From NCBI GenBank assembly GCA_039033415.1, contig JBCCCR010000003.1:124001-188000 (forward strand): 64,000 nt of DNA, given 5' to 3'. Made by a program: the position numbers and the translations under genes. The notes beneath the pieces were generated by a model. That model saw nothing but the letters and a program-made list of their open reading frames with translations. It ran no database searches and had not been told where the DNA came from. The DNA comes from Pseudomonadota bacterium (GTDB lineage Bacteria > Pseudomonadota > Gammaproteobacteria > Xanthomonadales > SZUA-38). This document shows positions 5,252 to 36,322 of the stretch, piece by piece. Position 1 is the first letter of the stretch. Every line of letters begins with the position of its first letter.

Positions 5252-5992
5252 GTGTTCCTGTCACGCCTCCTTCGTATTCGCCCGCTTCTGGAAAACCAGA
5301 CGGGTCGCTACCTGCTCTATGCAGCTGGTGAGACGATTCTGATCGTGCTGGGCATTCTGATCGCCCTGCAAATCGACAGCTGGAATCAGGACCGGCAGGA
5401 TCAAAAGGCGGAACTGAGTTACATGCAATCGCTGATTGAAGACCTGGAGATCGACATCGAAGAGGCCGACGGCGTATTGGCTGCGCTTCGAAACCACATC
5501 GACGCGACTCAGGATCTCGCAGAAATGCTGGCAGACCCAGAGGTTGTTTCAAACTCCAATGAGGCTTACGCGCTGTGGACCAACAATATGGGTTTCCCAG
5601 ACTTTTTGAGCAACGACCGAACGCTGCGACAACTCAAGAGCGACGGCGGTTTTTCGCTCATCCAAACCCAAAGAGTGACGGTTTCCATCATCGAGTATGA
5701 GCGACTGCTAAAAGAGTTCTACGGGCAGCAGGAAATCTGCAACCAGCTTCTCATTCAGCAAGGGCCCTACCTTCAGCTTTTCGATACGGTTGCCATGGCT
5801 CAGACGCCCACCTCTCCCGTGCCGCTCACCGAGGCCGGAAAGCGCGGCTTGAGCCAGGCCTACACAGACCGCAAACTCTGGATGCTTGCGCTGGTTGGTC
5901 TTGTTCGGCGGCTGGAAGCGGTTCGCTCTGCCAGTGCCGAGCTTGCGACGCTCATCCAGACCGAATATGCGCTCTTACACCCTGGGCTCTGA
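5252..5992 (+). CDS. DUF6090-like single-pass membrane protein
   Basis: A 246-residue protein starting with GTG, with AAGGTG six bases upstream. The N-terminal pattern (LLENQTGRYLLYAAGETI, a hydrophobic helix of about 20 residues ending in ALQIDSWNQ) matches the conserved start of DUF6090 family proteins, which have one N-terminal membrane helix followed by a soluble helical domain with coiled-coil character. The function of the family is unknown. Charged heptad-like segments follow (SLIEDLEIDIEEADGVLAAL). The CpeT-like gene lies downstream on the same strand, about 130 bases from its likely start, so co-transcription is possible. Confidence 0.75.
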   Translation: MFLSRLLRIRPLLENQTGRYLLYAAGETILIVLGILIALQIDSWNQDRQDQKAELSYMQSLIEDLEIDIEEADGVLAALRNHIDATQDLAEMLADPEVVSNSNEAYALWTNNMGFPDFLSNDRTLRQLKSDGGFSLIQTQRVTVSIIEYERLLKEFYGQQEICNQLLIQQGPYLQLFDTVAMAQTPTSPVPLTEAGKRGLSQAYTDRKLWMLALVGLVRRLEAVRSASAELATLIQTEYALLHPGL

Positions 5993-6120
5993 TGACTCGT
6001 TCTTCGGCAGCTAAGGATCGACCGCAGCTTTTGCTGGTCTACGATGTCGCTGTGCGCAGCTCCAGGAGAGCATCAGGCAATGACGGATTCAGAGGCAAGC
6101 AGGACCGGGAGGTAAGAATC

Positions 6121-7155
6121 ATGGGAACGTGCATTGCAACGACAACGAGAAGGGCTAAACGCTGGCTGACGCTGATTGTCCTGACAGCACTCTGCGCCTC
6201 AGCGACGGCCCAGGAACGCAGCTATACGCTGCTCGAACGCGAGCTGGAATACCTGATGGAGCTCTGGCCAGGTGACTACGACAATCGGGAACAGGTGCAG
6301 TTCGACTTTAACGTCGGCAAGCGGTCACCTGCTCAGGGCGGACATAAGCGGGTGCACAGCCAAATTCGCCGGGTCGACCTGCCGACGTTCGGTGAACACG
6401 TCCTTTATGCAAAGACTTTTGGTGACAACAATTCAGACAACGTTATTCGGCATCATCTCTATGAACTAAAAGCCGACGAAACAGCTAAAGCGATCCGGAT
6501 CCGGGTCCACCAATTCAAGAACGGTGGGCGGTATTCCGGCGCTGCCGCGAATCCCGCGATTCTTGACAGCATGACGCGTGACGACACAACCGTTGCAGCG
6601 GGCTGCGATCTACTGTTGACCCGAGATGTCGATGCGATCGTCGGCGGCACCGCGCCGGGCGCATGCGCAGCGGCAAGCGAAAACGGCGGTGAGAGCCTTG
6701 ACTACCAGGTGCGGATTTCGGAGACCGGCTACTGGTTTCACGATCGTAAGATCACCAATGACTCGTCGGCGGAACCACAACTTCCCTGGTACCAGCTGGA
6801 GCGAGTTCGCTGGTTTCAGTGCATGCTCGATTTCCCGCGCGAGGACGGCGGCCGACCCGTGAACACCGTCTCGTACGTCCGCATTCACGATCAAGGAGGG
6901 ACTTATCCCTTTACCTATCGAGATGGGCGCGACATGGTTTTTACCTTTCGCAACACCTGGTCGTACGGCATGCAACGGGAGACGCTGGTCATCGTCATCC
7001 AGGAAGGTGATGAGACCGGCAAAACCCTCGTCTACGGCTGGGCGGAGCCTGGCTCTGATCGGATCGGCGTTAACCCAGGCTGGATAAGACTGCAGTGCGA
7101 CCTGGATACACCGAAGAAGCGAAAATTCCAGCAGTGGCTGCGGCCAGACAGCTGA
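6121..7155 (+). CDS. Secreted CpcT/CpeT-like protein
   Basis: The frame is open from 5992, but the ATG at 6121 is the likely start: GGGAGGT lies just upstream and the new N-terminus is a clear signal peptide (basic MGTCIATTTRRAKR, hydrophobic TLIVLTALCASA, cleavage near TAQ). The mature ~315 residues follow the CpcT/CpeT chromophore-lyase fold: LMELWPGDYDNREQV at the start, RIRVHQFKN, then a GCDLLLTRD segment and the GGTAPGACAA/SLDYQVRIS block near the usual PGxxC region. In cyanobacteria this family attaches bilins to phycobiliproteins. No phycobiliprotein is expected here, so another hydrophobic ligand is likely (inference). The 3' end has a degraded second copy at 10296-10394. Confidence 0.72.
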   Translation: MGTCIATTTRRAKRWLTLIVLTALCASATAQERSYTLLERELEYLMELWPGDYDNREQVQFDFNVGKRSPAQGGHKRVHSQIRRVDLPTFGEHVLYAKTFGDNNSDNVIRHHLYELKADETAKAIRIRVHQFKNGGRYSGAAANPAILDSMTRDDTTVAAGCDLLLTRDVDAIVGGTAPGACAAASENGGESLDYQVRISETGYWFHDRKITNDSSAEPQLPWYQLERVRWFQCMLDFPREDGGRPVNTVSYVRIHDQGGTYPFTYRDGRDMVFTFRNTWSYGMQRETLVIVIQEGDETGKTLVYGWAEPGSDRIGVNPGWIRLQCDLDTPKKRKFQQWLRPDS

Positions 7156-7184
7156 CCGTCACGACGGGTTGCGCCAAAGAGTCA

Positions 7185-7472
7185 CGCGCGTGTGAACGCG
7201 CACATAGTCCTGCAGCCCTGCACGTAGACAATCTCGAATAGCCCCAGGCGGATATCCTTGCGGTTTGCCCGGATGAAGATCGACGCCTGAGCTGCCTCCC
7301 CAGATTCACCTGCCGCCGGATCTCCTCCCTGAACGCTGGCCTGGAACCGCTGGGGCGCTCGAAAGAAACGATCAAACGTGATTGGCTTCAGCAGGTAGTC
7401 GACGGCCTCCAGCTCGAAGCCCTCCAGGGCGTAGTCCCGATAGGCGGTGGTAAAGATAACCAGCGGCCGCTG
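7185..7472 (-). pseudogene. Fragment of a LytTR-type response regulator gene
   Basis: Read on the minus strand from 7472, this gives RPLVIFTTAYRDYALEGFEL, then EAVDYLLKPITFDRFFRAPQ, and later ASIFIRANRKDIRLGL and EIVYVQG. It aligns with the middle of the intact LytTR regulator at 14920-15642 (IFTTAYRDYALEGFELEAVD, RVNRKDVRLALADVVYVQG). The first ~75 codons (phosphoacceptor region) and the end of the DNA-binding domain are missing. A one-base deletion after the VYVQG codons shifts the frame, after which the DNA still reads as LQDYVRVHT in another frame. The fragment lies directly against the stop codon of the FG-GAP gene, so the breakpoint is at about 7472. It is non-functional as a regulator. 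Confidence 0.88.
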
Positions 7473-10169
7473 CTACTCAAAGCTATCGGAAAACAGTAGG
7501 TCCGCCCGGATGCTGATCGTAAAGATCTGAGGTTGCGAGGTGTCCTGTCCGCCATTGGCGACGCCACCGTTGTCGCTGGCGACCACGGTAAAACTGGAGC
7601 TACCGCTCTCGCCGGGTGCTGGTGTGTAAGTAAGGGTGCCCGCGGCATCGACCGTGGGAGGAACGGTGAACAGCGTTGGGTTGGCCACGCCGGCAACTAG
7701 GACGGTCACTTGTTGGCCCGCCTCGTTAGGTGCACCGGGGTCTAGGCTGGCCCAGTTGCTGACCGTCTGCGGACCGGCGTCTTCGCCGACTGGCGGCGGG
7801 TCGTCAGCGTTCAGTACCGGCGGATCGTTAACCGAATTAACCGTGATGGTAAAAGTCTGGAAGCCCGACACGTTGACCCCGCCGTTGGCCATGCCGCCGG
7901 AGTCTACGACCCGCACATTAAAGGTACTCGTGCCGCTGACGTCCTGGCGCGGGTCATAGATCAGATTCCCCAAGGTGTCGATCGTAGGCAGCACAGAAAA
8001 CATGCCAGGATTAGAGACCGCTGCAACCTGATAGGTAAGCGCAAACTGGTTGCTCTCGTTTGGGCCGGGATCGAAAGCTGACCATCCGGAAACCGTTACG
8101 CCGCTCGGGTCCTCGTTGACCGCAGGCGGATCGGCAGCAACAAAACTCGGCGCGTCATTGACCGGCATGATGTCCAGCGTTACGTTCAGCAGGTTTTCGT
8201 CGCTAGCGAACCCCCCGAGAGCGCCGACCGCGCTGGAGATGTCCACGCTATCACCAGGCACTCGCCAGCGCCCGTCCCACATACGCACCGCTAGGCCGCC
8301 GGGCTGTCCGGAGTAGTTTAACGCCGGCACAAAACGCAGCCAGGCGTCGTTGCCGAGGACAAGTGCAGAAGTGTCGCTGAGGGCGCTCGGCAGGTCCTGC
8401 CAGTCGACGCCGTTGAGGGCATACTGCCATTGGCCCTGACCGGGCGTAGAGGAATCGCCGATGACGCCGACGCCGCCAAACGCATCAACGTCGAGGTAGT
8501 TGAGCGCTACGGTGACGTCTAGTCGGCTGCCGCTGGCGTTGGCATCGTCCTCGAGTTCGTCGAGCAGAAATGAGGTTGCTCCACCGACCCGCAGCGGTGC
8601 CGCGTTGCCGAACACCACGTAAGTCTCGCCTTCATCATCCGCGCTTGGATCAGCGCTATCGGCGCCAATGATCACATCGTCGATGCCGTCGCCGTTAACG
8701 TCGCCGGCGCGGCTGACCGAGCGTCCCGAGCGATCATCAGCGTCGACGCCGTTGAGCACGAAACCATTGCTGCCATCCAGGTCTGCCAGATTGAGGCTGG
8801 CAGGAAAGCCCGAATCGCTGCCAAACACCACGTAGGTCTCGCCTCCATTATTGACACCCGGATTTGCGAGATAGGCGCCAATGATCACATCATCAATGCC
8901 GTCGCCGTTGACGTCGCCAGCGCCATTGACCGAGCGGCCCGACAAGTCATTGGCGTCGATGCCGGTGAGTACAAAGCCGCTGCTGCCGTCCAGATCGGCC
9001 AGATTGAAACTGGCGGGGAAACCCAAATCGGTGCCAAACACCACGTAAGTCTCGCCCTCATTTAGGGCGTTCGAATTCGCGAAGTAGGCGCCAATGATCA
9101 CGTCGTCAATGCCGTCGCCGTTGATGTCGCCAGCGCCGCTAACCGAGCGGCCCGAGCGATCATTAGCCCCAATGCCGTTAAGCAAAAAGCCACTGCTGCC
9201 GTCCAGATCAGCCAGATTGAGGCTTGCAGGAAAACCCGTTGCGCGGCCGAACACGATATAGGTCTCGCCTTCAGAGGTGCCCATCAGATCGGCGAGATAG
9301 GCACCAAGGATCACATCGTCAATGCCGTCGCCGTTGACGTCGCCGGCCCCGCTGACCGAGCGGCCCGAGAAATCACCAGCGTCGATGCCGTTGAGTACAA
9401 AGCCGTCGCTGCCGTCCAGGTCAGCAAGATTCAGGCTGGCGGGGAAACCCGAATCGCTGCCAAATACCACGTAGGTCTCGCCCTCATAGTTAGTGCCGGA
9501 ACCGGCGTAGGGGGCACCAATGATCACATCGTCAATGCCATCCCCGTTGACGTCCCCCGCGCCGCTAACCGAGCGGCCCGAGCGGTCATAGTTGTCAATG
9601 CCGTTGAGGACAAAGCCGCTGCTGCCGTCGAGGCTTGCCAAATTGAGACTGGCGGGAAAACCCGTTGTACGGCCGAACACCACGTAGGTCTCGCCTTCAT
9701 AGTCGGCGCTCTGATCAGCCCCGTAGGCGCCAATAATCAAATCGTCGATGCCGTCACCATTGACGTCACCGGCGCCACTGACGGCGTCGCCAGAGAAGTC
9801 ACTGGCGTCGATGCCTTCGAGCAAAAAACCAGTGCTGCCGTCCAGATCAGCCAGATTCAGACTCGCAGGAAATCCGGTTGCACGGCCAAACACCACGTAG
9901 GTCTCACCCTCATTGCTGGTGCCGGGATCGGCGAGATCTGCGCCAATGATCACATCGTCGATGCCGTCGCCGTTGACGTCCCCCGCGCCGCTGACGGAGC
10001 GGCCGGAAAAATCATTGGCATCAATGCCGAAGAGCACAAAGCCGTTACTGCCGTCCAGCTGACTCAGTTCAATGCTTTCCTGCACGAACGCCGAGCCAGG
10101 AGAAAGTACGGCGGCTATGGCGATAGCCAATGGCCCCTTCCTAAGCTTCTGGCTGCGTGCTCGATTCAT
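7473..10169 (-). CDS. Exported seven-bladed FG-GAP beta-propeller protein
   Basis: The start at 10169 (MNRARSQKL) gives a good signal peptide (LAIAIAAVLSPGSAFVQ); the upstream ATG at 10202 has no binding site. Seven tandem 71-residue repeats follow, each with the calcium-loop motif DVNGDGIDDVIIGA and the strand GETYVVFG, as in integrin-alpha FG-GAP blades, so one closed seven-bladed propeller is predicted. Then come an Ig-like segment (SSTPGQGQWQYALNGVDW) and two cadherin-like repeats (PPAVNEDPSGVTVSGW; PPPVGEDAGPQTVSNW). The protein ends LLFSDSFE. A paralogue with the same architecture is at 28071-30764. A secreted calcium-binding surface protein is likely; no enzyme site is seen. It sits between two gene fragments left by a rearrangement. 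Confidence 0.93.
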   Translation of the reverse strand: MNRARSQKLRKGPLAIAIAAVLSPGSAFVQESIELSQLDGSNGFVLFGIDANDFSGRSVSGAGDVNGDGIDDVIIGADLADPGTSNEGETYVVFGRATGFPASLNLADLDGSTGFLLEGIDASDFSGDAVSGAGDVNGDGIDDLIIGAYGADQSADYEGETYVVFGRTTGFPASLNLASLDGSSGFVLNGIDNYDRSGRSVSGAGDVNGDGIDDVIIGAPYAGSGTNYEGETYVVFGSDSGFPASLNLADLDGSDGFVLNGIDAGDFSGRSVSGAGDVNGDGIDDVILGAYLADLMGTSEGETYIVFGRATGFPASLNLADLDGSSGFLLNGIGANDRSGRSVSGAGDINGDGIDDVIIGAYFANSNALNEGETYVVFGTDLGFPASFNLADLDGSSGFVLTGIDANDLSGRSVNGAGDVNGDGIDDVIIGAYLANPGVNNGGETYVVFGSDSGFPASLNLADLDGSNGFVLNGVDADDRSGRSVSRAGDVNGDGIDDVIIGADSADPSADDEGETYVVFGNAAPLRVGGATSFLLDELEDDANASGSRLDVTVALNYLDVDAFGGVGVIGDSSTPGQGQWQYALNGVDWQDLPSALSDTSALVLGNDAWLRFVPALNYSGQPGGLAVRMWDGRWRVPGDSVDISSAVGALGGFASDENLLNVTLDIMPVNDAPSFVAADPPAVNEDPSGVTVSGWSAFDPGPNESNQFALTYQVAAVSNPGMFSVLPTIDTLGNLIYDPRQDVSGTSTFNVRVVDSGGMANGGVNVSGFQTFTITVNSVNDPPVLNADDPPPVGEDAGPQTVSNWASLDPGAPNEAGQQVTVLVAGVANPTLFTVPPTVDAAGTLTYTPAPGESGSSSFTVVASDNGGVANGGQDTSQPQIFTISIRADLLFSDSFE
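8577..10067 (-). repeat. Seven tandem 213-bp units inside the FG-GAP gene
   Basis: Seven in-frame units of 71 codons (10067 down to 8577) are strongly similar at DNA level. The calcium-loop segment near each GATCACATCGTC recurs about every 213 bases (about 8668, 8881, 9094, 9305, 9519, 9732, 9947). The seventh unit diverges over its last ten codons. In the paralogous gene the repeats differ in length and sequence, so this copy appears recently homogenised or expanded. Confidence 0.9.
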
Positions 10170-10295
10170 TGTTTTCGTCTCTACGCGTGTTGCAAGCATC
10201 ATACGAAGCTCGTGGCCAGAATTCTGTGACGAGTATGTAACGGTTTTTCAGCGATGGATAGCCAGGTCGATACTGAGGCGCAATCCGCCTGGGCG
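10170..10295. other. Upstream region of the FG-GAP gene
   Basis: Contains the likely leader of the minus-strand FG-GAP gene. A weak purine run (AGAGACG) lies about eight bases before its ATG. No clear promoter hexamers or hairpins stand out. Similarity to the cpeT-like gene begins at about 10296. Confidence 0.4.
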
Positions 10296-10394
10296 CTGAC
10301 TGCGTTGGCCTTGAACCCGGGCTGGATCCGGCTTCAGTGCGTCCTGGACACGCCAAAGACGCGGAAATTCCAGCAGTGGCTGCGGGCCGGATAG
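10296..10394 (+). pseudogene. 3' remnant of a second cpeT-like gene
   Basis: The plus strand reads LNPGWIRLQCVLDTPKTRKF then QQWLRAG and a TAG stop at 10392-10394. This closely matches the last 27 codons of the intact CpeT-like gene (VNPGWIRLQCDLDTPKKRKF, QQWLRPDS). The rest of the gene is absent and there is no start, so it is a truncated copy. In the intact copy the LytTR fragment follows about 30 bases after the stop; here the 10464-14711 gene follows instead. Confidence 0.87.
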
Positions 10395-10463
10395 CTAATC
10401 CAACCCTGCGACACCTGCAAGTCGTCGCACCGACACCATCTGCGGGTCCCGCCCCTTGGCGAG

Positions 10464-13400
10464 TTAGAGCTCCTCGAAACCGCTCAGGAATATCGTCTCT
10501 GGTGCAAAGCTCACCGAAAAGGTTTGAGTCATCGAGCTGTCCTGACCACCATCAGCTGTTCCACCGTCGTCCACAAGCTGCGCTGCGACCGTGGCGCTTC
10601 CCTGGTTGCCGCTGAGCGTGAAACTCAGCGTCCCGTCATTGCTGATCGCAACTGAATCGATTACGCCGGCAGGATCGGCCTGGACGTTGAGCTGGAAGGT
10701 CAAATTCTGGCTGACTTCGTCAGGACCGCCGGCACTGATGCCAGTTGCCCAAGCAGGCAGGGTCTGAGTCAGGGGTTGACCGTCAACGATGGTGACATCC
10801 GGGCCCGCAGCAAAACTTGGCGCGTCATTTACGGGCTGAACGGTGATTGTCACCGTACCCGTTGCGGTGATGAAGCCGTCAGTGATGTCGTAAGTAAAGC
10901 TCGCAACGCCGACCGCGTCGGCCGCAGGCTGGAAGTCAAAGTCGCCATTGGCGCTCAAGGTCACCTGCCCGCCTACGCCAGACGCGGCAAAGGTCCCAAC
11001 AGTAGTCACCGTGATCACCTCGTTACCCTCGTCTCCGGCGTCAGCACCGTTACCGTTGTCGTTCAGCACGTTGCCAACCACGCCGGAATCCTCAAGCGTC
11101 GAAAAGTCGTCTGGCAACGCTGCGAGGCTGTCGGTCGAGCCGGTAACGGTGATTTCCACCGTCTGGGTGGCAGACGTCGAAGAGTTTTCAGCGGTGTAGC
11201 TGAAGGATACGACCGCGTTTTGCCCAGCGTTTAAGTTCTCGAACGTGCTTCCCGGATCATAGGTAAAGCTGCCGTCGGCGGCGACGTTCAGCGTTCCTCC
11301 GGCCATTGGCGCCGTATCACTACCTACCGCGGGCTGCCCATCGATTGCGGTGATGGTCAGGGCGCCGACCACCGCAACGTCGTTCTGGAGCAGGCCCGTT
11401 GCGGCATCGACGGTAAGGGTTGCGTCCTCATCCACGGTATAGGTGTCTTGGGTCAGCTGCGGCGCGACAAACAGCTGAGTCACGGTAGCGTCGCCAACGG
11501 CGGGCGTATCGGGATCGTCCGACACGGTCGTGGGAAGATTGGTGGCGGTCAGCATGACCTGCGCGCTCGTTTGCGTGACCCCCATGCCCAAGGGATCGGT
11601 GACGTTCGCATCCCAGGTGATGGTGACGGTTCTACCGGGGTCAACCTGCCCAAGATCTACACCGACATCGGTATCGCCGGGGCGGTTACCCAGCAGCACC
11701 ATGCCAAAATCTGAGGTAACCGACCCGAGAACCAAAGTCGTCTCCGCGCCGCCCAGAGATACCAGGGTGCCGCATAGTTCCGGCGTATTGCCGTTGTTGC
11801 TCAATACCGCCGTGTAGCGAATGGTGTCTCCACCGCCGGCGACCCCGTCGCCATTGTCGACGGCGATTGCGTCCGTGAGCGTCAAACTGACGTCTCTCAG
11901 TATGACCGAGGTCACCGTCGGATCGCTAAAGCTTGTGGCGTCTAACGGGTCGTCGAAACTGCTTGTAAACTCCGCTGTCGTGAGCAGGCCGGTTGTGCTG
12001 ACCTCGGTAACGGCGCCGGGCGCTGCGGTGATCGTACCCTGGAACGTGATCGTGGTTGTTGCTCCCTCAAACACGGTACCAAGGGCGACTTCGACTCGGC
12101 TGTCCCCAGCCGTATTGCCAGTGAGAATGGTACCCTGACCGGCGGTTACCGAACCGACATCAAGATCGATTCCGGCCCCGAGATCAAAGGCCGCGAGCGT
12201 GCTGGTCAGGTCACCGACGCCCGATCCTACACGCGCCGTGTACTGCAAGATATCGCCGGAGCTCACGACCAGGTCGTTGTCGACATCGGTAAGCAGCACC
12301 CCCTCGAGTGTTGCGGTCCGGCTGGAGTCAACTTCGACCCAGGCGAGGGCCGTGTCGGAGCCCGTCAACGTGAGGGTAAGCGCGCCGATGTTGGTGAAGT
12401 CCGCCCCGCTTCCGGCAGTTGGCGTAAAGTCTCGGAAGTCTACTGTGGTGATGCCGCCGGCGAGGCTGGGGAAAATAACCACCGCCGCCCCACTAAAGGA
12501 CGAGACATTGGAGTCGTCGGTGAAAGCATTCAGCTCAAAATCAACCGCGCCATCGAAGGCGATCTCCAGACGATCGAGCAGGCCGCCGCTGGTCAGATCA
12601 ACCCCGCCGAGGCCATCTCCATCCACCGTACCAAAATCTCCATCGGGTCCGTCCCATACCAGCGATACCGAATCGGTGGCGTCCTGACCCGTAACGACAA
12701 TCCGACCACCCGTGAGATCGACATTCGTGATGTTGGCAAGGTTTGCGGCGGTGATGTCGATCTCGCCTCCAAGCGCGGCGCCGTTCACCAACGTCACGCC
12801 AGCGTTCGCGCCGTTGGCGGACAAAGAAGCCGAAATCTCGAACTGATCGACCGGCAATCCCCGGTGAGGCACCTGGTATAGCTGCACGTCATCAAAATCG
12901 ACGCCGTCGTTAGGGAGCAATTCATCGTCGTGCTGCTGCAGTTTTAGCTGACTGAGGGAGGACAAATCCTGCGCCGGTGAAGCGGTCCGCAAGACCTGGG
13001 AAACATCCACGGGCCCGGTGGATCGCCAGGTGCCAAACGTGCCATCGTTCCAGTCGAACAGCAGCTGATAGGCGTCAGTATCCTTACCCCGCACGAAGAC
13101 ACCGTCCTCGGGATTGTCTTCATCCCCAACGTTAAAGTAGTTGGTTTCGAAAAAGAGCTTGTCCCGTGAGGGTCTAATCGCTAAACCATCAAAGGTCAGC
13201 ACCAGCTGGTTTTCATCCAGATTTCCGGCGTCAAGGGAGGCGGCCTGAACGCCGCTACTGGCGTTACCGCGGGCAAACTGCACCCTTTCATCCAGCGTCG
13301 CCACGTGCGACCAGCCGATAATGCCGCCGATTGGCGCGAAAGACTCATTTTGGTAGATCAGCTGCGGCCCTACGCTCTCGAAGTCTTCGTTCACGGGCAG

Positions 13401-14711
13401 GCTGGCGACCTCTGCCGTGTCGATCATCAGGACAGCGGTGTCGTTGCCGGGATTCGGGTCACCAGAAAGGCCGGATCGTGCGCTCAGCGTGTATTCGCCA
13501 AACTTGAACCCGGGATTGATCGTTTGCAGCAAATCGTAGGTGGTCTCGCCCACGCCTTGGGTATAAGCCCCATCCGGTTGAAATGGATCCAGCGGCACGC
13601 CGGCAGCAACCGAGGGCACCACATCGTCAATAAACACCGGGAGCCCGTTCGGCAGATCAATGCGCACCTGGATCGGGATGTTAGTTAAGGGCACCGTCGT
13701 GAAGTTTTTGAGCAAGATGCGTATGGTTTCATCCACTCTAGGGTTGTAAGGATCGAGTCCCGGGATCTCGACGCTGATGATGCCCACGTCGTCCTCCTTT
13801 GGCGCAATCCGAATGTCGTCAACGCTGATGCCGTCGGTATTGACGGGAAAATTATCGTTCTGGGAGAACCTGATCTGGGCCTGATCGGTGAGCGTCTGCG
13901 CGTTCACACGCATAAATTCACTGAGGTTGATAGAAGTTACGTCGGTCCAGTTTCCGTCGTTCGAGTTAGCACCAAAGCTATAGACCTCTATCCACGGATC
14001 CAGTGGGCTGCCTCGCAACTCGACGATGTCAGTCGCATCGCTTTCATCGTCATGGTCATACCAGTTGAAATCAAGCAACAGCTCCCGGCCATCAGCAACG
14101 GTCACCGCCTGCTGCCCGGTCCAGGTGAGGATCAGCCGATTGGTGCTTCTCCCATCTGGGTTGTCCATGGTTGCGATGCCCATGCCGTCAGGGTCGAAAT
14201 CTGTCCGATGGCTAAGTCGACCGTCGCCTGTGACTTCGAGCAGATAGGAAAAACCGTCGAAGCCGCTGAATACGGCGTCCGCGCGGTAGCTGGTCACGGC
14301 GGGGCGAATCTCAAAGTCCTGGAAAAAAGGGATCGGTTGGGCGGTAACCGTAATAAAGTTGTTGTCCGTTAGGTCCATGTCCGTGACCAGCGTGCTCTCG
14401 GCGCGAAGCACCTCGTAACCGGCCGAAAGATCGAAGACCGTTGGGGTCGTGAAAACGATCGTGGAAGTCGCCGGGATACTGGCGATAGTCTCCAGCGAAA
14501 CAATTTCGGTGCCCCCCTGCGGAGTCACAAATATGGTCAGGGGCACATTGGTGACTTCCGAGGCCGTGTTGTTGCTGACCAGCACGCTGATCGTGGCGTT
14601 CGCGCTCAGGCTGTCAGCCTGAACGCCCTGAACCGTGACGATGTTTTGCGAGTACGCTGCGCCCGCCCACAGGGCAACAACAGCGACCAAGTCCCTGAAT
14701 TTCATCCGCAT
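10464..14711 (-). CDS. Large secreted multidomain adhesin-like protein
   Basis: A 1415-residue protein with a signal peptide (LVAVVALWAGAAYSQ) and GGGGA before the ATG at 14711. By eye the order is: a CARDB-like domain (~25-125), a jelly-roll-like segment (FFQDFEIRPAV, ~130-305), a second CARDB-like domain (DDVGIISVEIPGLDPYNPRV), a second jelly-roll (VNEDFESVGPQLIY), an Ig/beta segment, two DUF11-like repeats (SSGDILQYTARV; GGGDTIRYTAVLSNNGNTPE), then VCBS/cadherin-like repeats (DTYTVDEDATLTVD; LPDDFSTLEDSGVVGNVLND). The last domain (DDGGTADGGQDSS) resembles the last domain of both FG-GAP proteins, and the end IFLSGFEEL is the shared motif. No catalytic domain is visible. It lies between the cpeT-like remnant and the LytTR regulator, probably as an insertion. 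Confidence 0.9.
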   Translation of the reverse strand: MRMKFRDLVAVVALWAGAAYSQNIVTVQGVQADSLSANATISVLVSNNTASEVTNVPLTIFVTPQGGTEIVSLETIASIPATSTIVFTTPTVFDLSAGYEVLRAESTLVTDMDLTDNNFITVTAQPIPFFQDFEIRPAVTSYRADAVFSGFDGFSYLLEVTGDGRLSHRTDFDPDGMGIATMDNPDGRSTNRLILTWTGQQAVTVADGRELLLDFNWYDHDDESDATDIVELRGSPLDPWIEVYSFGANSNDGNWTDVTSINLSEFMRVNAQTLTDQAQIRFSQNDNFPVNTDGISVDDIRIAPKEDDVGIISVEIPGLDPYNPRVDETIRILLKNFTTVPLTNIPIQVRIDLPNGLPVFIDDVVPSVAAGVPLDPFQPDGAYTQGVGETTYDLLQTINPGFKFGEYTLSARSGLSGDPNPGNDTAVLMIDTAEVASLPVNEDFESVGPQLIYQNESFAPIGGIIGWSHVATLDERVQFARGNASSGVQAASLDAGNLDENQLVLTFDGLAIRPSRDKLFFETNYFNVGDEDNPEDGVFVRGKDTDAYQLLFDWNDGTFGTWRSTGPVDVSQVLRTASPAQDLSSLSQLKLQQHDDELLPNDGVDFDDVQLYQVPHRGLPVDQFEISASLSANGANAGVTLVNGAALGGEIDITAANLANITNVDLTGGRIVVTGQDATDSVSLVWDGPDGDFGTVDGDGLGGVDLTSGGLLDRLEIAFDGAVDFELNAFTDDSNVSSFSGAAVVIFPSLAGGITTVDFRDFTPTAGSGADFTNIGALTLTLTGSDTALAWVEVDSSRTATLEGVLLTDVDNDLVVSSGDILQYTARVGSGVGDLTSTLAAFDLGAGIDLDVGSVTAGQGTILTGNTAGDSRVEVALGTVFEGATTTITFQGTITAAPGAVTEVSTTGLLTTAEFTSSFDDPLDATSFSDPTVTSVILRDVSLTLTDAIAVDNGDGVAGGGDTIRYTAVLSNNGNTPELCGTLVSLGGAETTLVLGSVTSDFGMVLLGNRPGDTDVGVDLGQVDPGRTVTITWDANVTDPLGMGVTQTSAQVMLTATNLPTTVSDDPDTPAVGDATVTQLFVAPQLTQDTYTVDEDATLTVDAATGLLQNDVAVVGALTITAIDGQPAVGSDTAPMAGGTLNVAADGSFTYDPGSTFENLNAGQNAVVSFSYTAENSSTSATQTVEITVTGSTDSLAALPDDFSTLEDSGVVGNVLNDNGNGADAGDEGNEVITVTTVGTFAASGVGGQVTLSANGDFDFQPAADAVGVASFTYDITDGFITATGTVTITVQPVNDAPSFAAGPDVTIVDGQPLTQTLPAWATGISAGGPDEVSQNLTFQLNVQADPAGVIDSVAISNDGTLSFTLSGNQGSATVAAQLVDDGGTADGGQDSSMTQTFSVSFAPETIFLSGFEEL

Positions 14712-28070: not shown

Positions 28071-30764
28071 ATGACAAAACGACATCATCGTCGCCGACTC
28101 GCGCTAACTGTTTCGGCAGCTCTCGCCACAAGCGCTCCGCTTCCTGCGCAGGAGCTTGTTGAGCTTGGCCAACTTAATGGCACAAACGGTTTCGCAATCA
28201 ACGGAGAGGGTACCGATCACTTTTCTGGCCGCGCGATCAGTGGCATCGGAGACATCAACGGCGACGGATTTGATGACCTCGTCATCGGCGCACCGCGGGG
28301 AGATAACGGCAGCAACGACTATCGAGGTATTTCCTACGTGGTTTTCGGCAGCGACTCCGGCTTCCCTGCCAATCTGGAGCTTGCGACGCTCAACGGCACC
28401 AATGGATTCGCTCTGCTCGGGTTGAATCCCGACGACGAATTCGGCCATACGGTCGGCGGCGCCGGGGACGTCAACGGGGATGGTCTGAATGATCTGTTGA
28501 TCGGTACTGAGTTCGCTAACCTCAGCTTCGTGTTGTTCGGGAGAGAGACACCTTTCTCTCCACGCAGTTTCCTATCCGAAATCACTGCGAATGAGGGTTT
28601 CCGCATCACGGGCGCCGGCTCTGGCGATGCCGCAGGTGGCGCAGTCAGCATTGCTGGTGACGTTAACGGTGATGGCTTTGACGACATACTAATCGGCGCC
28701 GCTTTTGCCGACCCCAATGGAAGTATCAACGCTGGCGCGAGCTACATCGTGTTCGGCACCGACGCGGGTTTTCCGTCCAATCTCGACCTTGGCACACTCA
28801 ACGGATCTAACGGCTTTGTGATGAACGGAGAGGCAGCTGGAGATTTTGCTGGCCTCGCCGTTAGCGGTGCCGGCGACATCAATGCCGATGGTTTTGATGA
28901 TCTGCTGATCGGCGCACAAAACGCGTCGCCGACAAACGGGACGGCTGCCGGCATAACCTACGTTATCTTTGGTTTTGATGATTTTGCGATCGATCTCATC
29001 AGTCTCGCCAACGTTGGCCGTGGCGGTGGCACCAGCAGTGTCGGTCTTACTATTGACGGGCTTGCGCCCTTTGACCTTCTTGGAATCGCCGTGAGTGACG
29101 CGGGAGATATCAACGGCGACGGCTTTGGAGATGTGTTGCTCGGCGCTGACCCGGCTGGCGGATCGGGCCCTGGCACCAGCTATGTCGTGCTGGGCTCCGA
29201 CCAGCAGTTTCCATCAAGCCTGGATCTTAGCTCGCTCGACGGTTCCAACGGGTTTACGATCAACGGCGTCGCCTCTGAAGACGGCGCTGGGCTTTCCGTC
29301 AGCAGCGCAGGTGATGTCAATGGAGATGGCCTCGACGATTTTCTGGTCGGTGCCCGACGAGCAGATCCGGTTGGCAAGACGAATGCTGGCATCACTTACC
29401 TAATCTATGGCACCACTGCCGGCTATCCCGCCACGCTGGATTTGGCTTCCGTCGACGGCGGAAACGGTTTCGCGATCAACGGCGTCGCCGGCGCTGATTA
29501 TGCAGGCCGTGCGGTAAGCGGTGGGGGCGACATCAACGGCGATGGCCTTGACGACCTTTTCATCGGCGCACCCTACGCCGATTCGAGCGGAGTCAATCGC
29601 AACGGAAGCAGCTACGTGTTGTTTGGCAACAGCGCTCCGCTAACCCGAGCCGACTCAGCAACACTGTTCTCTCAGCTGGAGGACGAAACCGCACCACAGG
29701 GAAGTCCGCTGGAAAGCACCATCATAAACGCCTACCTCGACGCCGATCCATTTGCCGGGATGGCGGTGATTGCCGATTCCAGCACCCCAGGCCAAGGCAT
29801 CTGGCAGTACAGCGCTGACGGCAGCAGCTGGAGCAGTGTCCCCGGTACCGTGAGTGATCAGACGGCGCTGGTTCTCTCGGCAACTGACCTGCTGCGTTTC
29901 GTTCCAGAACCCGACTTTGAGGGCGTGCCCGGACCACTGAGCGTGCGCCTGTGGGACGGACGCTGGCGACAGCCCGGTACCGATGTGGATATCACGCTGG
30001 CGACCGGAGCTTTCGGCGGGTTCTCCCGCGACGAGGAGCTGCTCGACGTCTCGGTCGAGATCATTGGGATCAACGATGCCCCATCCTTCAGCGCCAGCAA
30101 CCCACCGGCGGTCAATGAAGACCCGGGGGGCGTCACCGTATCCGGATGGGCCAACTTTGATCCGGGCGCGCCCGGCGAAAGCGGCCAGTTCCCGCTGGTT
30201 TACCAGGTTGAAAACATCTCTAGCCCGGGCCTCTTCTCGGTGCTGCCCACTATCGGCACGCTGGGCAATCTGGTCTATAACGCCGCCCCGGACGTCAGCG
30301 GAACAAGCACCTTCGATGTCCGCGTGGTCGACAATGGCGGTATCGCCAACGGCGGTGTCGACGTGTCCGGTTTTCAAACCTTCACGATCACCGTCAATCC
30401 GGTCAACGATCCACCGGGCTTCAGCGCGGAAGATCCGCCGGTGGTTGCGATCGATGCCGGACCACAGACGGTTGCTGGCTGGGCCACCTTTGACCCTGGT
30501 GCGCCGGACGAGCAAGGTCAGCAGGCGAGCTATCAGGTGCTGGGGGTTGAAGATGCTGGCTTGTTTGCGACTCCGCCCTCGGTGGACAGCAGCGGCAATC
30601 TCACCTATACCGCTACGCCCGGTGTCGAAGGCTCCACTGAGTTCACGGTCCAAGTGAACGACAGCGGCGGCACCGCCAACGGGGGAACCGATACCTCCAG
30701 CGCACAGACGTTTGTGATCCGCATCGGTGCCGAAACCCTCTTTGCCGATAGTTTCGAGGACTAA
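28071..30764 (+). CDS. Exported seven-bladed FG-GAP protein, paralogue
   Basis: An 897-residue protein with a signal peptide (LALTVSAALATSAPLPAQ) and AAGGGA before the start. It has the same plan as the protein at 7473-10169: seven FG-GAP blades with calcium loops such as GDINGDGFDDLVIGAP and GDVNGDGFDDILIGAA, an Ig-like segment (STPGQGIWQYSADGSSW), then two cadherin-like repeats (PPAVNEDPGGVTVSGW; PPVVAIDAGPQTVAGW). The end TLFADSFED carries the shared C-terminal motif. The blades are more diverged and vary in length (the second is shortened, the fourth lengthened). One loop reads DINADGFDD and another DINGDGFGD, so calcium binding may be weaker there. Likely a secreted or surface protein of unknown partner. 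Confidence 0.93.
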   Translation: MTKRHHRRRLALTVSAALATSAPLPAQELVELGQLNGTNGFAINGEGTDHFSGRAISGIGDINGDGFDDLVIGAPRGDNGSNDYRGISYVVFGSDSGFPANLELATLNGTNGFALLGLNPDDEFGHTVGGAGDVNGDGLNDLLIGTEFANLSFVLFGRETPFSPRSFLSEITANEGFRITGAGSGDAAGGAVSIAGDVNGDGFDDILIGAAFADPNGSINAGASYIVFGTDAGFPSNLDLGTLNGSNGFVMNGEAAGDFAGLAVSGAGDINADGFDDLLIGAQNASPTNGTAAGITYVIFGFDDFAIDLISLANVGRGGGTSSVGLTIDGLAPFDLLGIAVSDAGDINGDGFGDVLLGADPAGGSGPGTSYVVLGSDQQFPSSLDLSSLDGSNGFTINGVASEDGAGLSVSSAGDVNGDGLDDFLVGARRADPVGKTNAGITYLIYGTTAGYPATLDLASVDGGNGFAINGVAGADYAGRAVSGGGDINGDGLDDLFIGAPYADSSGVNRNGSSYVLFGNSAPLTRADSATLFSQLEDETAPQGSPLESTIINAYLDADPFAGMAVIADSSTPGQGIWQYSADGSSWSSVPGTVSDQTALVLSATDLLRFVPEPDFEGVPGPLSVRLWDGRWRQPGTDVDITLATGAFGGFSRDEELLDVSVEIIGINDAPSFSASNPPAVNEDPGGVTVSGWANFDPGAPGESGQFPLVYQVENISSPGLFSVLPTIGTLGNLVYNAAPDVSGTSTFDVRVVDNGGIANGGVDVSGFQTFTITVNPVNDPPGFSAEDPPVVAIDAGPQTVAGWATFDPGAPDEQGQQASYQVLGVEDAGLFATPPSVDSSGNLTYTATPGVEGSTEFTVQVNDSGGTANGGTDTSSAQTFVIRIGAETLFADSFED

Positions 30765-30902: not shown

Positions 30903-31142
30903 ATGACGGAGAAAACGCGCGAGGTGCGCCGTTTGGCGCTGCTGGTCGGTTGCGCTGTCGGGGCGGTCGCTCTAGCTGAAACGTACACCTACGATGACGC
31001 TGGCCGATTGACCGGTATCGTCTACGACGATCCGGACCGGACCTTGATTCGGCTGGAGCTGGATGATGCGGGCAACCTGGTCAGCCAGTCGCGGTCGACG
31101 GAGTTTGTTTTTATCGACAGCTTTGAGGAGTCGTCACCATGA
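30903..31142 (+). CDS. Minimal YD-repeat exported protein (79 residues)
   Basis: A very short protein with an N-terminal signal (LALLVGCAVGAVALA, cleavage before ETYTY), one YD/RHS repeat (TYDDAGRLTGIVYDD, then LDDAGNLVSQS) and the shared ending FVFIDSFEESSP. Its stop codon overlaps the start of the giant YD protein (ATGA at 31139-31142), so the two are translationally coupled. It may be a reduced relative of a long YD protein or a small partner of the next one. Its real coding status is supported by signal peptide, repeat, motif and overlap together. Confidence 0.8.
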   Translation: MTEKTREVRRLALLVGCAVGAVALAETYTYDDAGRLTGIVYDDPDRTLIRLELDDAGNLVSQSRSTEFVFIDSFEESSP

Positions 31143-34100
31143 GGGGCGCTCCGGCAATTTTGGCTTCGCGAGTTCTTGTGGTCGCACTGCTGGTTCTTTG
31201 TCAGATACCGATAGCTTCGGCGCAGGACGCCTATCGCGTCAGGGACCTTCGGCCCGGTCCGAACAGCTCGACGCCGGGTGGACCATTCGAGGTCTCAAAC
31301 GGGCTCCTATACTTCTCAGCGAACACCGGGACCGACGGCAGCATTGTCGTCGATCTTTGGCAAAGTGACGGGACAGCGCTGGGTACGCGCATCGCGATGG
31401 ATTCCGTGGGTAGTCAAAACCCCAAATTTCTGACGGATGTCGATGGTGAGCTCTACTATGTGGCCACCGAATCCAATACCGGACGCGAACTGTGGCGACT
31501 GGTCGGCGGCAATCCACAGCGCGTGACCGATATCCGCAGCGGCACCCTGTCTTCCAACCCCGAGGGTATCGTTAACGTCAACGGTACCGTCTACTTCACC
31601 GCCATCAGCGACGCGTTTGGACGGGAGCTCTATCGCACCGATGGCGTAGGCGCGGTCCAGGTCGTCGACCTGACGCCCGGGGATGAAGACACCGAATTTG
31701 CAAACATCGGGACTGTCCCTAATTTTGTCGCTTTGGGTGACCAGCTGCTGTTCGTTGCTGACGACGGAGTAAGTGGACGTGAACTGTGGCGCACCCAGGG
31801 AACGGCAGCGACCACGGTGCGTTTGACCGATTTCGCTCCGGGCAGCGAATCGACATTGTCTTACCGAAACGACCCGGATGCCGGGGACAGGTTTGAAAAC
31901 CTGTTGACCGTCGGTAATCAGGTTTTTTTTTCGGGCACCCTGGCTCCTAATAACCACTTTCTCGGTGTCACCGACGGAACGGAAGCTGGAACACGCGTGC
32001 TCCGGGAGTTTGGCAGAGCACGCCCCAACGATTTCGCCGAACTCAACGGCCGGCTGCTTTTTTCGGCAGACGAGCTCTGGCAGAGCGACGGTACCATCGC
32101 CGGCACGACGGAATTAGCCGACATCAGTCTTTTCGGTCCGTCTTTTCCAACCTTTCTCACCACCGTCGGCAACTTTACCTATTTCACAGTTCTCGGCGAC
32201 AGCGGTGACGAATTTTGGCGCACTGACGGAACCAGCGCTGGCACGATTCTGCTGGCGCCCATAGGCACCGGTAAGCCCATTGGACTTGACGGCGTCGCGT
32301 ACTTTTCGGCCGCGGATGACCAATTCGGCCAGGAGCTTTGGGCCAGCAACGGCATGCCTTTAGGTACCATTGGCCTGACCGATATTAACCCCGGTCCTGG
32401 CAGCGCCGTGTTTAACCAGCTAGGTGCCGTGAACGGTCGGGTGTTCATGGCTGCTGACGACGGAGTCAGCGGGGAGGAGCTTTGGGCCATCCGGGTGGGT
32501 GAAGTCACCGAAACCGACAGCGCGGCAAATTTCGAGCTGAGCGGCAGCACGGGCGACCCAATCAATACGTTCACCGGCGAGCTTTTTGAGAGTCCCGCGC
32601 CGGACATCGATCTCGGCGGACCGCTGCCGATCATCTTCAGCCGTTACTACGCCTCGGGCCTCAACGCGGACAGCGTCGTTGGCTCAATGGGCCGGAACTG
32701 GCGTCACTACTATGAATGGAATCTGATCCGCAGCCCGGGTACGGCGGAGATCATCACGCCCCGCGGCCGACGACTTCAATTTCTCGACGAAAATGGCACC
32801 TGGAATCTGGTGGGCGTCTCGGTCGACCAACCCTGGCAGCTGGTCACCGAAGGTAACCGCCTGGTGCTGGGCGATCCCGCCACTCAGTTGCTGTACGTTT
32901 TCGACGCCAACGATCGTCTCACCCAGATCCAGAATGTTAGCGGCAACACCCTCACGCTCACCTACAGTGGTGCAGGATTGCTAACCAACGTCGCCGACGG
33001 CCTCGGCCGCAGCCTGACGTTTTCCCAGCAGCCTGGCGGGCTGCTGACTCAGCTTGAAGATGACAACAGCAGAGTCGTCGCGTTCGGTCATACAGGCGAG
33101 GATCTGACCACGTTGACGGACGTGAGGGGCGGACAGACCCGCTACAGCTATACCGGTGCGGGGCTGCTCACCAGCATGGAACTGCCCGAGGGCAACGTTC
33201 GTTTCAGGCAAACCTGGGATGACCAGCAGCGGGTGTCGACGCAAAGCGACGACGACGGCAACGTGATGAGCCTGACGTACGAAGGCGCGCAAACGCGCAT
33301 CGTTGATCCGTTGCTGAACGAGCAGGTGCATGAGCATAACGGCGGCGGCCAGCTCACCGGGATCACCGACGCGGAAGGCGAAACCACGGGCTACGTGAGC
33401 GACGGCGACGGGCGCAGGGCCGGCGTGGTAGATCGTCTCGGCGGCACGTCCTCGTTCCAATACAGCCCTGACAGCGGCCTGTTGGAGCAGCTCACGCGCG
33501 CTGACGGCCAGTCCATCAACTATCAGGAGGCCGACTATGTTGTGCGCGGCATCACGTTCCGCAACTACACGTCCATCACCTACCCCGACGGCACCAGTAT
33601 TGGCTTTGGCCGAGACGGCGCCGGGCGCCTGACTTCGCTGACGGACCAGGCGGGTGGCGTCTGGACATTCTCAAGAAACGCCGCCGGCCAGCTGCTCAGC
33701 TCGACCAATCCGCTCGGCGGGACCACCATCCAGACCTTCAACCCAGACGGGACCCTTGCAACACGCACGGATCCTGCGGGCGATACGACCTCGTTCTCCT
33801 ACGATTCCCTGCGTCGGCTCACCGGGATCACTTATCCGGGCGCTGACTCGGTCACGCTGACGCTTAACGACGCTGATCAGCTTACGGCCGTTACCGACGC
33901 ACGCGGAAATACAACCAGCCTCAGCTATGACGCCAACGGCCGCCTGACGGGTTTTATCGATCGCGCCGGCGAAGCCCGTTTGTATGGCTATGACAGCAGC
34001 GGACGCCTGACCAGCGTCCAGCGTCCAGAGGGTCACGTTGTCAGTCTGGACTATGACAGCCGAGGACTCCTCGCGGAACTCGAGGACAATCTCGGTGAGC

Positions 34101-36322
34101 GCATGAGCTTGGACTACAACGCGTTAGGTCAGCTCACGGGCATCTCCGACAGCGCCGCAAACCGCACGAGCCTCAGCTATGACGAGGAAGGCGGACTGAC
34201 CGAGATTCGAGACCCAGATAGTGCGCACGCGCAGCTCGGCCTCAACGCCACGGGCGGGCTCAGCAGCATAGCAACGGGCGCGAATGCACCCACGTCGGTG
34301 AGTTTCGACAGCAACGCACGTCCGATCGGAGAGCAGCTGCCGAGCGGCAGATCAACTTCCCGGACCTTTGACGCCCAGGGGCGGGAAAATCAGGTCCAGA
34401 CCGGCCCGCTGCAGACCAGCCGAGACGTCGACGCGCTGGGGCGCGCCACCAGCGTCACGAATTCAGCAGGCATCAGCGCGACGGCGCAATACGACAATCA
34501 GGGCCGCCTGACGTCATCAACCGACCGGCTGGGCCAGACCACCAGCTACAGCTATGACAGCCGCAGCAGAGTCTCCGGCGCGACCTTTCCCGGCGGCGCT
34601 GGCTCGGTCAGCTACACCTACGACGCCAACGGCAACCTGACGCGCGCACTGTATTCCGACGGTACAGACATCAGCGCCACGTTTGATGCCGAAGATCGAT
34701 TGGTTTCTGGTTCTGGGCTTTCGCTTGCCTACGACGGAAACGGCGAGGTCATTGAATCGAACGGCCTTCAGATGACCCGGCGCTCCGACGGCCGACTGCT
34801 CACCGTTGGCTACCCCGGCGGCATGACCGTCAGTTATACCTACAACGGTCGAGGCCTACTCGACACCGTCAGCGACAGCATGGGCAACAGCGCCAGCTTC
34901 AGCTACACCCCGGCGGGACGTCGCAGCGCAATCACCCGATCGAACGGCGTCACGACCAGCTACGAATACGACGCCTCCGGACGTCTTACGCGACTCCGGG
35001 TCGCTAGCAGCGGGACACAAAAAGGCGACACCACAAAGGGTGGCGGAAGCTTCCTCGATCGACGGCTGGCATACGACGCCGACGCGCGACTGTCCCGCGT
35101 GACAGGGCTTGAGCCACTGGCTCCTAACTTCGATTCCCTGCCTGATTTGGATTTCTCGTTTAATGCCGCGGGACAAATCGCCGGCAAAGTTTTTAACCCC
35201 CTTGGCCAGGTCACCGAAGCTGACGAAACGCAGTACGGCTGGGATTTGGCAGGGCGCGTGCGGCAAATCTCAGATGCAGCCCAAACGGTCGATCTGGACT
35301 ACGACGCTACGAACCGGATGATCGGCATGAGCCAGGGGGGACAGCAGAACGGATTCCGCTGGAACTACGCGACCGGCAGGCCAAGCCTGGCGGTTCAGTC
35401 TGTTGACGGGCAGGACTGGTTTAACTGGACCAGCACCCCAGAGGGTGAGCCGCTGTGGCGCAGCAACGCCGACGGATCAGGTGTCTGGTTTCCACATTAT
35501 GATGAATTGGGGAACGCGGTGCTTGCCACCGACGAAAACGGCACCGCGGGCAGTCAGGCGAAATTCGACGCTTTCGGAAAAGTGCTGGCCGGCGCACCCT
35601 TGTGGCCGCTGGGTCCGCGCGCTCGGCAGGGCGGCCTGTCGCTCACCGGCGACATCTACAGCGACGCGCCCGGCGAATACGTCCACAGCGGCGCCCGGAG
35701 CCGCATCAAGCCACGGCAAGGCGGAGACTTTGACCCGACGGACCAGAACGCATACAGCATCGGCCGCTTCGGTTCGCCGCTGCCGGAAATCACCGACGAC
35801 AGCAGCAGGTCAATCAGCTTGAGCGAAATTGTATTTGGTGAGAACCAGCTGATAAACAGTCTCGATCGAAGTTTTGAGTTAGGCCTATCGAGGGACCTGC
35901 TGTTCGGCGACGATCCCACACTCAAGCTTACCAGCAGCTTCGGCCTGGCCGACGATCCCTTTCTCATTGCAAACAGGATCACGCCGGAGATCTGCACCCC
36001 AAACAGTCGTGCTAGCATCGAAAAGGAAATTAAGCGCCTTGAAGCCCGTCAGGCGACGCTTGATCAGCTCGGCCGAGATGTTGCAGAGGAAGCTGTCCGC
36101 AACCTAATTCGGATGAATCTCTCCGACACGCAGGTTCTCTTCCCGCTCACCCCGGAAGCCGTCCTTGTAGAGGTACTCTCGGACCCGCTGGGTATTCTCA
36201 GAACCTACCTCATTCTGCAGGAATCAACTCGCGTGCAGAATTTGCTCAACGAACTGAACCTGGAGCTGAAACAGCTCGATTCCATCGTGCCGGAGTTGCC
36301 GGCAATCGTCATCATTTGCTGA
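31139..36322 (+). CDS. Giant secreted YD-repeat (RHS-like) protein
   Basis: A 1727-residue protein with a signal peptide (VLVVALLVLCQIPIASAQ). The first ~450 residues are ELWxSDGT-type propeller repeats (GRELWRTQGTAATTVRLTDF; DEFWRTDGTSAGTILL). A DUF6531-like entry domain follows (DPINTFTGELFESPAPDIDL; IIFSRYYASG), then about 25 YD repeats (SYDSLRRLTGITYPGADS; SYDSRSRVSGATFPGG). The usual RHS core end (YDPxxGRFLSxDP) is degraded to SGARSRIKPRQGGDFDP. The C-terminal ~190 residues are unique, with a helical, charged region (SIEKEIKRLEARQATLDQL). No known toxin motif and no immunity gene downstream are seen, so a polymorphic toxin role is unproven. Unlike its neighbours it lacks the FE-type ending. 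Confidence 0.92.
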   Translation: MRGAPAILASRVLVVALLVLCQIPIASAQDAYRVRDLRPGPNSSTPGGPFEVSNGLLYFSANTGTDGSIVVDLWQSDGTALGTRIAMDSVGSQNPKFLTDVDGELYYVATESNTGRELWRLVGGNPQRVTDIRSGTLSSNPEGIVNVNGTVYFTAISDAFGRELYRTDGVGAVQVVDLTPGDEDTEFANIGTVPNFVALGDQLLFVADDGVSGRELWRTQGTAATTVRLTDFAPGSESTLSYRNDPDAGDRFENLLTVGNQVFFSGTLAPNNHFLGVTDGTEAGTRVLREFGRARPNDFAELNGRLLFSADELWQSDGTIAGTTELADISLFGPSFPTFLTTVGNFTYFTVLGDSGDEFWRTDGTSAGTILLAPIGTGKPIGLDGVAYFSAADDQFGQELWASNGMPLGTIGLTDINPGPGSAVFNQLGAVNGRVFMAADDGVSGEELWAIRVGEVTETDSAANFELSGSTGDPINTFTGELFESPAPDIDLGGPLPIIFSRYYASGLNADSVVGSMGRNWRHYYEWNLIRSPGTAEIITPRGRRLQFLDENGTWNLVGVSVDQPWQLVTEGNRLVLGDPATQLLYVFDANDRLTQIQNVSGNTLTLTYSGAGLLTNVADGLGRSLTFSQQPGGLLTQLEDDNSRVVAFGHTGEDLTTLTDVRGGQTRYSYTGAGLLTSMELPEGNVRFRQTWDDQQRVSTQSDDDGNVMSLTYEGAQTRIVDPLLNEQVHEHNGGGQLTGITDAEGETTGYVSDGDGRRAGVVDRLGGTSSFQYSPDSGLLEQLTRADGQSINYQEADYVVRGITFRNYTSITYPDGTSIGFGRDGAGRLTSLTDQAGGVWTFSRNAAGQLLSSTNPLGGTTIQTFNPDGTLATRTDPAGDTTSFSYDSLRRLTGITYPGADSVTLTLNDADQLTAVTDARGNTTSLSYDANGRLTGFIDRAGEARLYGYDSSGRLTSVQRPEGHVVSLDYDSRGLLAELEDNLGERMSLDYNALGQLTGISDSAANRTSLSYDEEGGLTEIRDPDSAHAQLGLNATGGLSSIATGANAPTSVSFDSNARPIGEQLPSGRSTSRTFDAQGRENQVQTGPLQTSRDVDALGRATSVTNSAGISATAQYDNQGRLTSSTDRLGQTTSYSYDSRSRVSGATFPGGAGSVSYTYDANGNLTRALYSDGTDISATFDAEDRLVSGSGLSLAYDGNGEVIESNGLQMTRRSDGRLLTVGYPGGMTVSYTYNGRGLLDTVSDSMGNSASFSYTPAGRRSAITRSNGVTTSYEYDASGRLTRLRVASSGTQKGDTTKGGGSFLDRRLAYDADARLSRVTGLEPLAPNFDSLPDLDFSFNAAGQIAGKVFNPLGQVTEADETQYGWDLAGRVRQISDAAQTVDLDYDATNRMIGMSQGGQQNGFRWNYATGRPSLAVQSVDGQDWFNWTSTPEGEPLWRSNADGSGVWFPHYDELGNAVLATDENGTAGSQAKFDAFGKVLAGAPLWPLGPRARQGGLSLTGDIYSDAPGEYVHSGARSRIKPRQGGDFDPTDQNAYSIGRFGSPLPEITDDSSRSISLSEIVFGENQLINSLDRSFELGLSRDLLFGDDPTLKLTSSFGLADDPFLIANRITPEICTPNSRASIEKEIKRLEARQATLDQLGRDVAEEAVRNLIRMNLSDTQVLFPLTPEAVLVEVLSDPLGILRTYLILQESTRVQNLLNELNLELKQLDSIVPELPAIVIIC

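Follow-up and report, generated by a model that had tools for sequence, protein, structure and literature searches.

Two overlapping genes on the forward strand are the subject of this analysis, and unless a relative's locus is named coordinates refer to the window, the whole stretch of 64,000 nucleotides from a Pseudomonadota bacterium that was analyzed (assembly GCA_039033415.1, contig JBCCCR010000003.1, positions 124,001 to 188,000). The upstream gene (30903–31142) encodes a protein of 79 amino acids and the downstream gene (31139–36322) a giant of 1727; as the initial annotation stated, their stop and start codons overlap by ATGA (31139–31142). The composition it gave for the small protein, a signal peptide, a YD repeat and an FE ending, was likewise borne out by the sequence and by Pfam family PF05593. 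The hydrophobic signal peptide covers about residues 1–25 (30903–30977), with cleavage probably after ALA. Residues 26–65 (30978–31097) score above cut-off with both TIGR01643 and PF05593 (29.8 bits; cut-off 22). The wording "one YD repeat" holds in that there is a single unit; however, this unit contains two YD motifs and is modelled as four strands. The tag, F-x-D-S-F-E (31110–31127), lies within the last residues of the protein, FIDSFEESSP. The two Glu codons that close the tag read GAGGAG (31125–31130), which is likely the Shine-Dalgarno sequence of the giant gene. GAGGAG also occurs within the FE-tag codons in a same-genus genome (L084) and in a further Lysobacterales genome (L083), and the 4-nt ATGA overlap recurs in both of these and in a relative from the same family (L081).

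In its structure model the small protein consists of a signal helix (residues 3–19) and two hairpins (strands at residues 27–30, 36–40, 48–53 and 59–65), with pLDDT values of 88–96 across most of the unit and low confidence for the tag. Rhs-core repeats were the structural matches of highest probability, none reaching an E value of 0.001; sequence-profile searches returned Rhs cores, Tse5 and teneurins. None of the NCBIfam CTERM models matched the small protein.

The giant begins with a putative signal peptide (residues 1–28, 31139–31222; assigned from sequence), which is followed by ELWxxDGT repeats (approximately 31226–32503; TIGR04534, 232.6 bits) and by a DUF6531 domain with a YD-repeat shell (32552–35593; PF20148). 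The repeat array contains 14 PF05593 stretches (266.6 bits; TIGR01643, 222.9 bits). The model of this region (1180 residues, mean pLDDT 82.5) superimposes on the Rhs core 8qjd with a Z score of 32.9 and an rmsd of 2.8 over 818 residues; all structure models are of single chains. An Rhs-type YD shell is thus a strongly supported prediction for the fold of the giant. DUF6531 has been described as the lid of the Rhs column (PMC12704120), and since the giant carries it, its shell need not be incomplete without a partner. The Rhs-associated core model TIGR03696 gave no match in the window giant at an E value of 0.5 and scored above cut-off in eight of nine relatives examined; a divergent form of the corresponding region is present in the window giant and its same-genus relative. 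The divergent C-terminal region (35594–36319) ends in a Cys residue, and, as the initial annotation had noted, the FE ending is missing from the giant (final residues IVIIC). No sorting domain was found in its last 300 residues; the same result was obtained for all ten giants searched. A hydrophobic stretch with a terminal Cys closes the giant in three genomes, as IVIIC in the window (36305–36319) and L084 (13772–13786) and as IVSLC in L081 (13859–13873).

The pair is conserved in near relatives. The same-genus genome G001 (locus L084) has an identical layout, with small proteins 76% and giants 82% identical to those of the window. Comparison of the two small genes gave a dN of 0.18 and a dS of 0.90 (dN/dS about 0.20), with a codon-bootstrap omega of 0.09–0.39 and an omega of 0.09 for the mature part. 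The initial annotation had allowed that the small frame might be unconserved or free of purifying selection; neither is the case. We conclude that the small gene is genuine and conserved, and that purifying selection acts on it. The family relative G003 (locus L081) keeps the ATGA pair with a small protein 47% identical, and its giant has a beta-helix-like N-terminal region instead of ELWxxDGT repeats. An ATGA pair is also present at L083, where the small protein ends IFANGFEEASP. At L112 (genome G118) the giant has a divergently encoded YD protein that includes a Calx-beta-like part and ends FFADGFEG. Within the order to which the window belongs, giants of this subfamily are rare (4 of 398 genomes). 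In the same-genus genome (L020, 8908–9756), a 282-residue protein with a twin-arginine-like start is encoded between the FG-GAP gene and the small gene, a position at which it is absent from the window.

The FE ending is shared by many proteins of the window's genome. The window itself contains four F-x-D-x-F-E motifs, compared with 0.09 expected in shuffles, and in the whole genome the motif occurs near a stop codon 80 times, compared with two for the reversed control pattern. The stricter pattern F-x-D-[GS]-F-E, seen in the window at, for example, 3717–3734, 7476–7493 (reverse strand), 30741–30758 and 31110–31127, was found near stops 66 times in this genome, 37 times in G001, 58 times in G003 and 17 times in G118, all four of which have FE-ended partners; the corresponding control gave 0–1 matches in these genomes (0 in the window's genome). 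Two genomes whose partners have GlyGly-like tails yielded 0 and 1 matches, and among the six genomes it was only in these two that rhombosortase, the enzyme of GlyGly-CTERM, scored above cut-off. The majority of the FE-ended frames sampled from the window's genome open with a hydrophobic signal-like stretch. Known CTERM tags consist of a signature motif, a membrane helix and a basic tail at the C terminus. The FE ending is followed by 0–4 residues and, unlike the PEP-, GlyGly- and MYXO-CTERM tags, has neither membrane helix nor basic tail; in the proteins tested that bear it, the tag itself was matched by no NCBIfam or Pfam model. These observations make the FE ending a candidate sorting tag of Lysobacterales; for the small protein, a tag function is suggested by the position of the ending and by the other genomes. 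The FG-GAP/VCBS-like secreted protein encoded upstream of the pair (28071–30764, 897 residues) is FE-tagged too (FADSFED).

An outward search with the small protein alone returned only three clear relatives, together with generic YD repeats and a few small YD proteins. Use of the giant's DUF6531 region as the query solved this problem; the scan of named genomes yielded 60 loci. The small-large pair, which the initial annotation had proposed to look for in other genomes, was found in the same genus, in the same family, in the further Lysobacterales genome and in other phyla. A partner, meaning a secreted protein in which there is one YD unit and no more, was present at 34 of 34 evaluable loci of the giant subfamily (two of which, L088 and L093, are near-identical), as a separate gene at 32 and fused to the giant at two. 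Among these 34, the partner frame of L095 appears shortened. Beyond them, five loci are interrupted by contig ends (L089, L097, L100, L113 and L117) and one (L106) is partly masked; the loci lie mostly on metagenome-assembled contigs. By record title, which can be wrong for assembled metagenomes, the partners come from at least eight phyla, with Pseudomonadota, Zetaproteobacteria, Myxococcota, Rhodothermota, Verrucomicrobiota, Planctomycetota, Acidobacteriota, Hydrogenedentota and Chloroflexota among the taxa named. The position of the partner varies: it lies upstream of the giant, downstream (as in most lineages) or divergent to it. No partner was found at 15 loci of other DUF6531 subfamilies (within L120–L138). 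The possibility raised at the outset, that YD giants without a small partner carry the FE ending themselves, was not borne out, as it is present in none of the five other YD giants of the window's genome; none of these has a partner either. The partner hence belongs to this giant subfamily, not to YD giants generally.

The YD units of the partners resemble each other (consensus YxYDxxGRLTxVxYxDGxxIxYxYDxNGNLL) more than they resemble the repeats of their giants. Each locus was scored with a model from which it and its close relatives had been excluded: partners reached 33–69 bits and the best repeats of the giants 15–39 bits, with the partner ahead at 31 of 31 loci (all separate partners apart from L098). 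Consistently, at 31 of 31 loci the partner fitted a model of its own giant's repeats worse than a model of other partners. The window's small protein scored 55.0 bits with the partner-unit HMM, of whose training set it is itself a part, and the best repeat of the window giant 27.9 bits. Judged by these scores, the partner unit is an old family of its own and no piece of the neighboring giant.

The fusions, L092 (Myxococcota; 9266–13711) and L099 (a proteobacterial assembly; 6367–11136), each form one continuous frame, which shows that a single product can comprise both partner and giant. In both, a signal peptide and a YD unit are followed by VPEP with a hydrophobic stretch and RRR; the frame then continues through another signal-like stretch into the giant. 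Partner and giant thus follow one another as they do in the window. PEP-CTERM models matched the internal tail weakly, below cut-off. By its topology, such a frame could possibly be a naturally processed polyprotein.

What differs among partners is the anchor. Scores above the curated cut-offs were obtained for a T9SS type A sorting domain on the partner of Roseithermus (L094), for CFI-box-CTERM on two partners (L102 and L111), for Soli_cterm, the Solibacter C-terminal domain, on a Bryobacterales partner (L114) and for dockerin on a Hydrogenedentota partner (L115). Below cut-off were JDVT-CTERM on the partner of L091 (23.3 of 27), which also carries choice_anch_U, MYXO-CTERM on that of L105 (14.9 of 20) and IPTL-CTERM on that of L082 (15.4 of 20.5). 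GlyGly-CTERM-like tails were named by eye on two partners (L085 and L087), whose tails no NCBIfam model matched; lipoboxes (L086 and L139) and FE endings (the window, L081, L083, L084 and L112) were also judged by eye. No recognized anchor was present in the long partner tails of five Verrucomicrobia loci (L090, L096, L101, L108 and L109) or in L103 and L104. In partners with C-terminal anchors the YD unit stands at the mature N terminus, and in the two lipoproteins, which are anchored N-terminally, it stands at the C terminus. The unit is therefore always at the opposite end from the anchor. The suggestion of the initial annotation that functions are split between the two chains, the small one carrying the C-terminal tag, is supported by anchors on separate partners in several phyla, by their lack in the giants tested and by the two in-frame fusions.

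The reading that we think probable is that of an anchor adaptor: the small protein, encoded separately and exchangeable, would serve to anchor a YD giant that has no tag of its own. Coupled translation, through the ATGA overlap and the Shine-Dalgarno sequence within the tag codons, would give matched amounts of the two proteins, each of which, judging by its sequence, would be exported by its own signal peptide. In the mature small protein, the sorting tag would be preceded by a YD unit of two hairpins that is free and leaves its sheet edges open. This unit would dock on the YD sheet of the giant by strand addition, much as strands continue across two chains in TcB/TcC, and the tag would direct the pair to the cell surface or hold it there. 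The tag slot is filled by the FE ending in Lysobacterales and by the lineage's own anchor elsewhere. Docking to the YD shell is suggested by the shared fold, gene adjacency, the polarity of unit and anchor and the TcB-TcC precedent; a surface location of the pair is likewise what we infer.

Several other functions of the small gene have to be weighed. The ATGA overlap and the Shine-Dalgarno sequence inside the small frame would fit a leader that merely couples translation, or else a decayed fragment of the giant. Leader function as the sole role, and decay, are refuted by selection on the amino acids, by the downstream position of the partner in most lineages and by the unit being nearer to partners of other phyla than to the neighboring giant's repeats at 31 of 31 loci, and we give this reading next to no credence. 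A small gene adjoining a large Rhs-type gene is also the usual toxin-immunity layout, on which ground the partner could be the immunity protein of a polymorphic Rhs toxin. Immunity proteins are, however, specific to each toxin domain, unlike a YD unit conserved across phyla, and the partner is exported, bears anchor modules and may lie upstream, downstream or divergent. An immunity gene is disfavored by these features and appears highly improbable. Another precedent comes from Bdellovibrio, where the small secreted protein Bd0108 is co-transcribed with the YD-repeat protein Bd0109, binds it in vitro and was studied as a pili regulator (PMC3818213). The partner might similarly bind the YD protein as an independent regulator, at the surface or in the periplasm, and be no anchor. 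Yet Bd0108 is described as unique to Bdellovibrio, with no YD unit or anchor reported (PMC3818213), and the recognized sorting and anchor modules on the partners point to placement; we consider a regulator distinctly unlikely.

The main rival to an anchor adaptor is a cap or folding partner of the shell: acting as a chaperone or a missing turn, the YD unit would nucleate or close the spiral of the giant, and the tag would merely place the completed shell. In many phyla there is indeed a single, conserved unit next to the giant, the modelled partner sheet has free edges, and both TcB and TcC are required for a properly folded shell (PMC6425310). However, most of the giant's shell, modelled without the partner, can be matched to closed Rhs cores that consist of a single chain, and the lid is already in the giant. 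A folding cap alone would account neither for the change of anchor class from lineage to lineage nor for the flipped polarity of the lipoproteins. We regard this reading as unlikely and favor the anchor adaptor.

In the papers searched, which cover the field in part, we found no description of such an adaptor-giant pair; the open literature searched, likewise incomplete in coverage, yielded neither work on the FE ending nor any account of a YD anchor adaptor. The nearest known systems, Bd0108/Bd0109 among them, resemble the pair in part. In TcB-TcC of the Tc/ABC toxins a YD shell is built from two separately encoded chains, of which natural fusions are known (PMC6425310), and part of the giant's modelled shell matches TcB-TcC entries. 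In that system, however, both chains are large, each contributes much of the shell and TcC bears the toxin, whereas in the partner described here a signal peptide and an anchor accompany a single YD unit; Pfam detected no Tc-type SpvB or propeller domain in the window giant. The type VI Rhs effectors RhsA, RhsP, Tse5 and Tre23 have the same shell fold (Z scores of 26–33) and PF05593 repeats. Unlike them, the giant has a Sec signal peptide, N-terminal ELWxxDGT repeats and an adjacent secreted anchor partner, and no PAAR or VgrG part was found in it with Pfam and NCBIfam profiles. WapA of Streptococcus suis is, like the giant, a Sec-exported DUF6531 YD giant, and its delivery involves SrtB, a surface-sorting enzyme encoded next to it; in that case the partner is a sortase and the sortase-interacting part lies on the WapA chain (PMC12704120), whereas here the tag is on a separate YD protein. 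The choice-of-anchor families of NCBIfam (for example choice_anch_D and choice_anch_U) combine one conserved module with differing C-terminal sorting domains, as the partner does with its T9SS-A, CFI-box-CTERM, dockerin and Soli_cterm domains at different loci. What sets the partner apart from those families is that its conserved module, a YD unit, is paired with a giant that is a second protein and bears no tag.

Twenty further loci (L161–L180), intended as a control covering the order's other YD giants, are biased because they were picked by a signal-peptide-plus-YD match; within this biased set, 12 lacked a partner and eight had large proteins (1000–2600 residues) bearing one N-terminal YD unit (L161, L162, L165, L168, L170, L171, L173 and L177). 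In five of these large proteins, scanned with Pfam, TIG repeats follow the unit, accompanied by PPC repeats in three. In Lysobacterales, several of them adjoin YD giants that belong to another subfamily. In another Lysobacterales genome (L058), a 119-residue YD protein with a signal peptide and no recognized tag (9817–10176) shares 17 nt with the frame of a YD giant from a different subfamily (5613–9833, reverse strand). The adaptor-giant split may be more general than the subfamily analyzed here.

Taken as a whole, the broader proposition is that the pair represents a widely conserved, undescribed two-gene mode of surface display, in which a YD adaptor with a lineage-specific tag captures an untagged Rhs-type giant, with the FE ending as a new C-terminal sorting signal that lacks a membrane helix; we see the chances of this as evenly balanced. 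Because relatives fill the FE slot with known sorting modules, the genome-wide FE tag of Lysobacterales gains a first testable function. A separate, exchangeable anchor would explain seemingly unanchored, Sec-exported YD giants that lack a type VI apparatus. It would also predict a binding partner for each such giant, and would amount to a natural two-piece display system.
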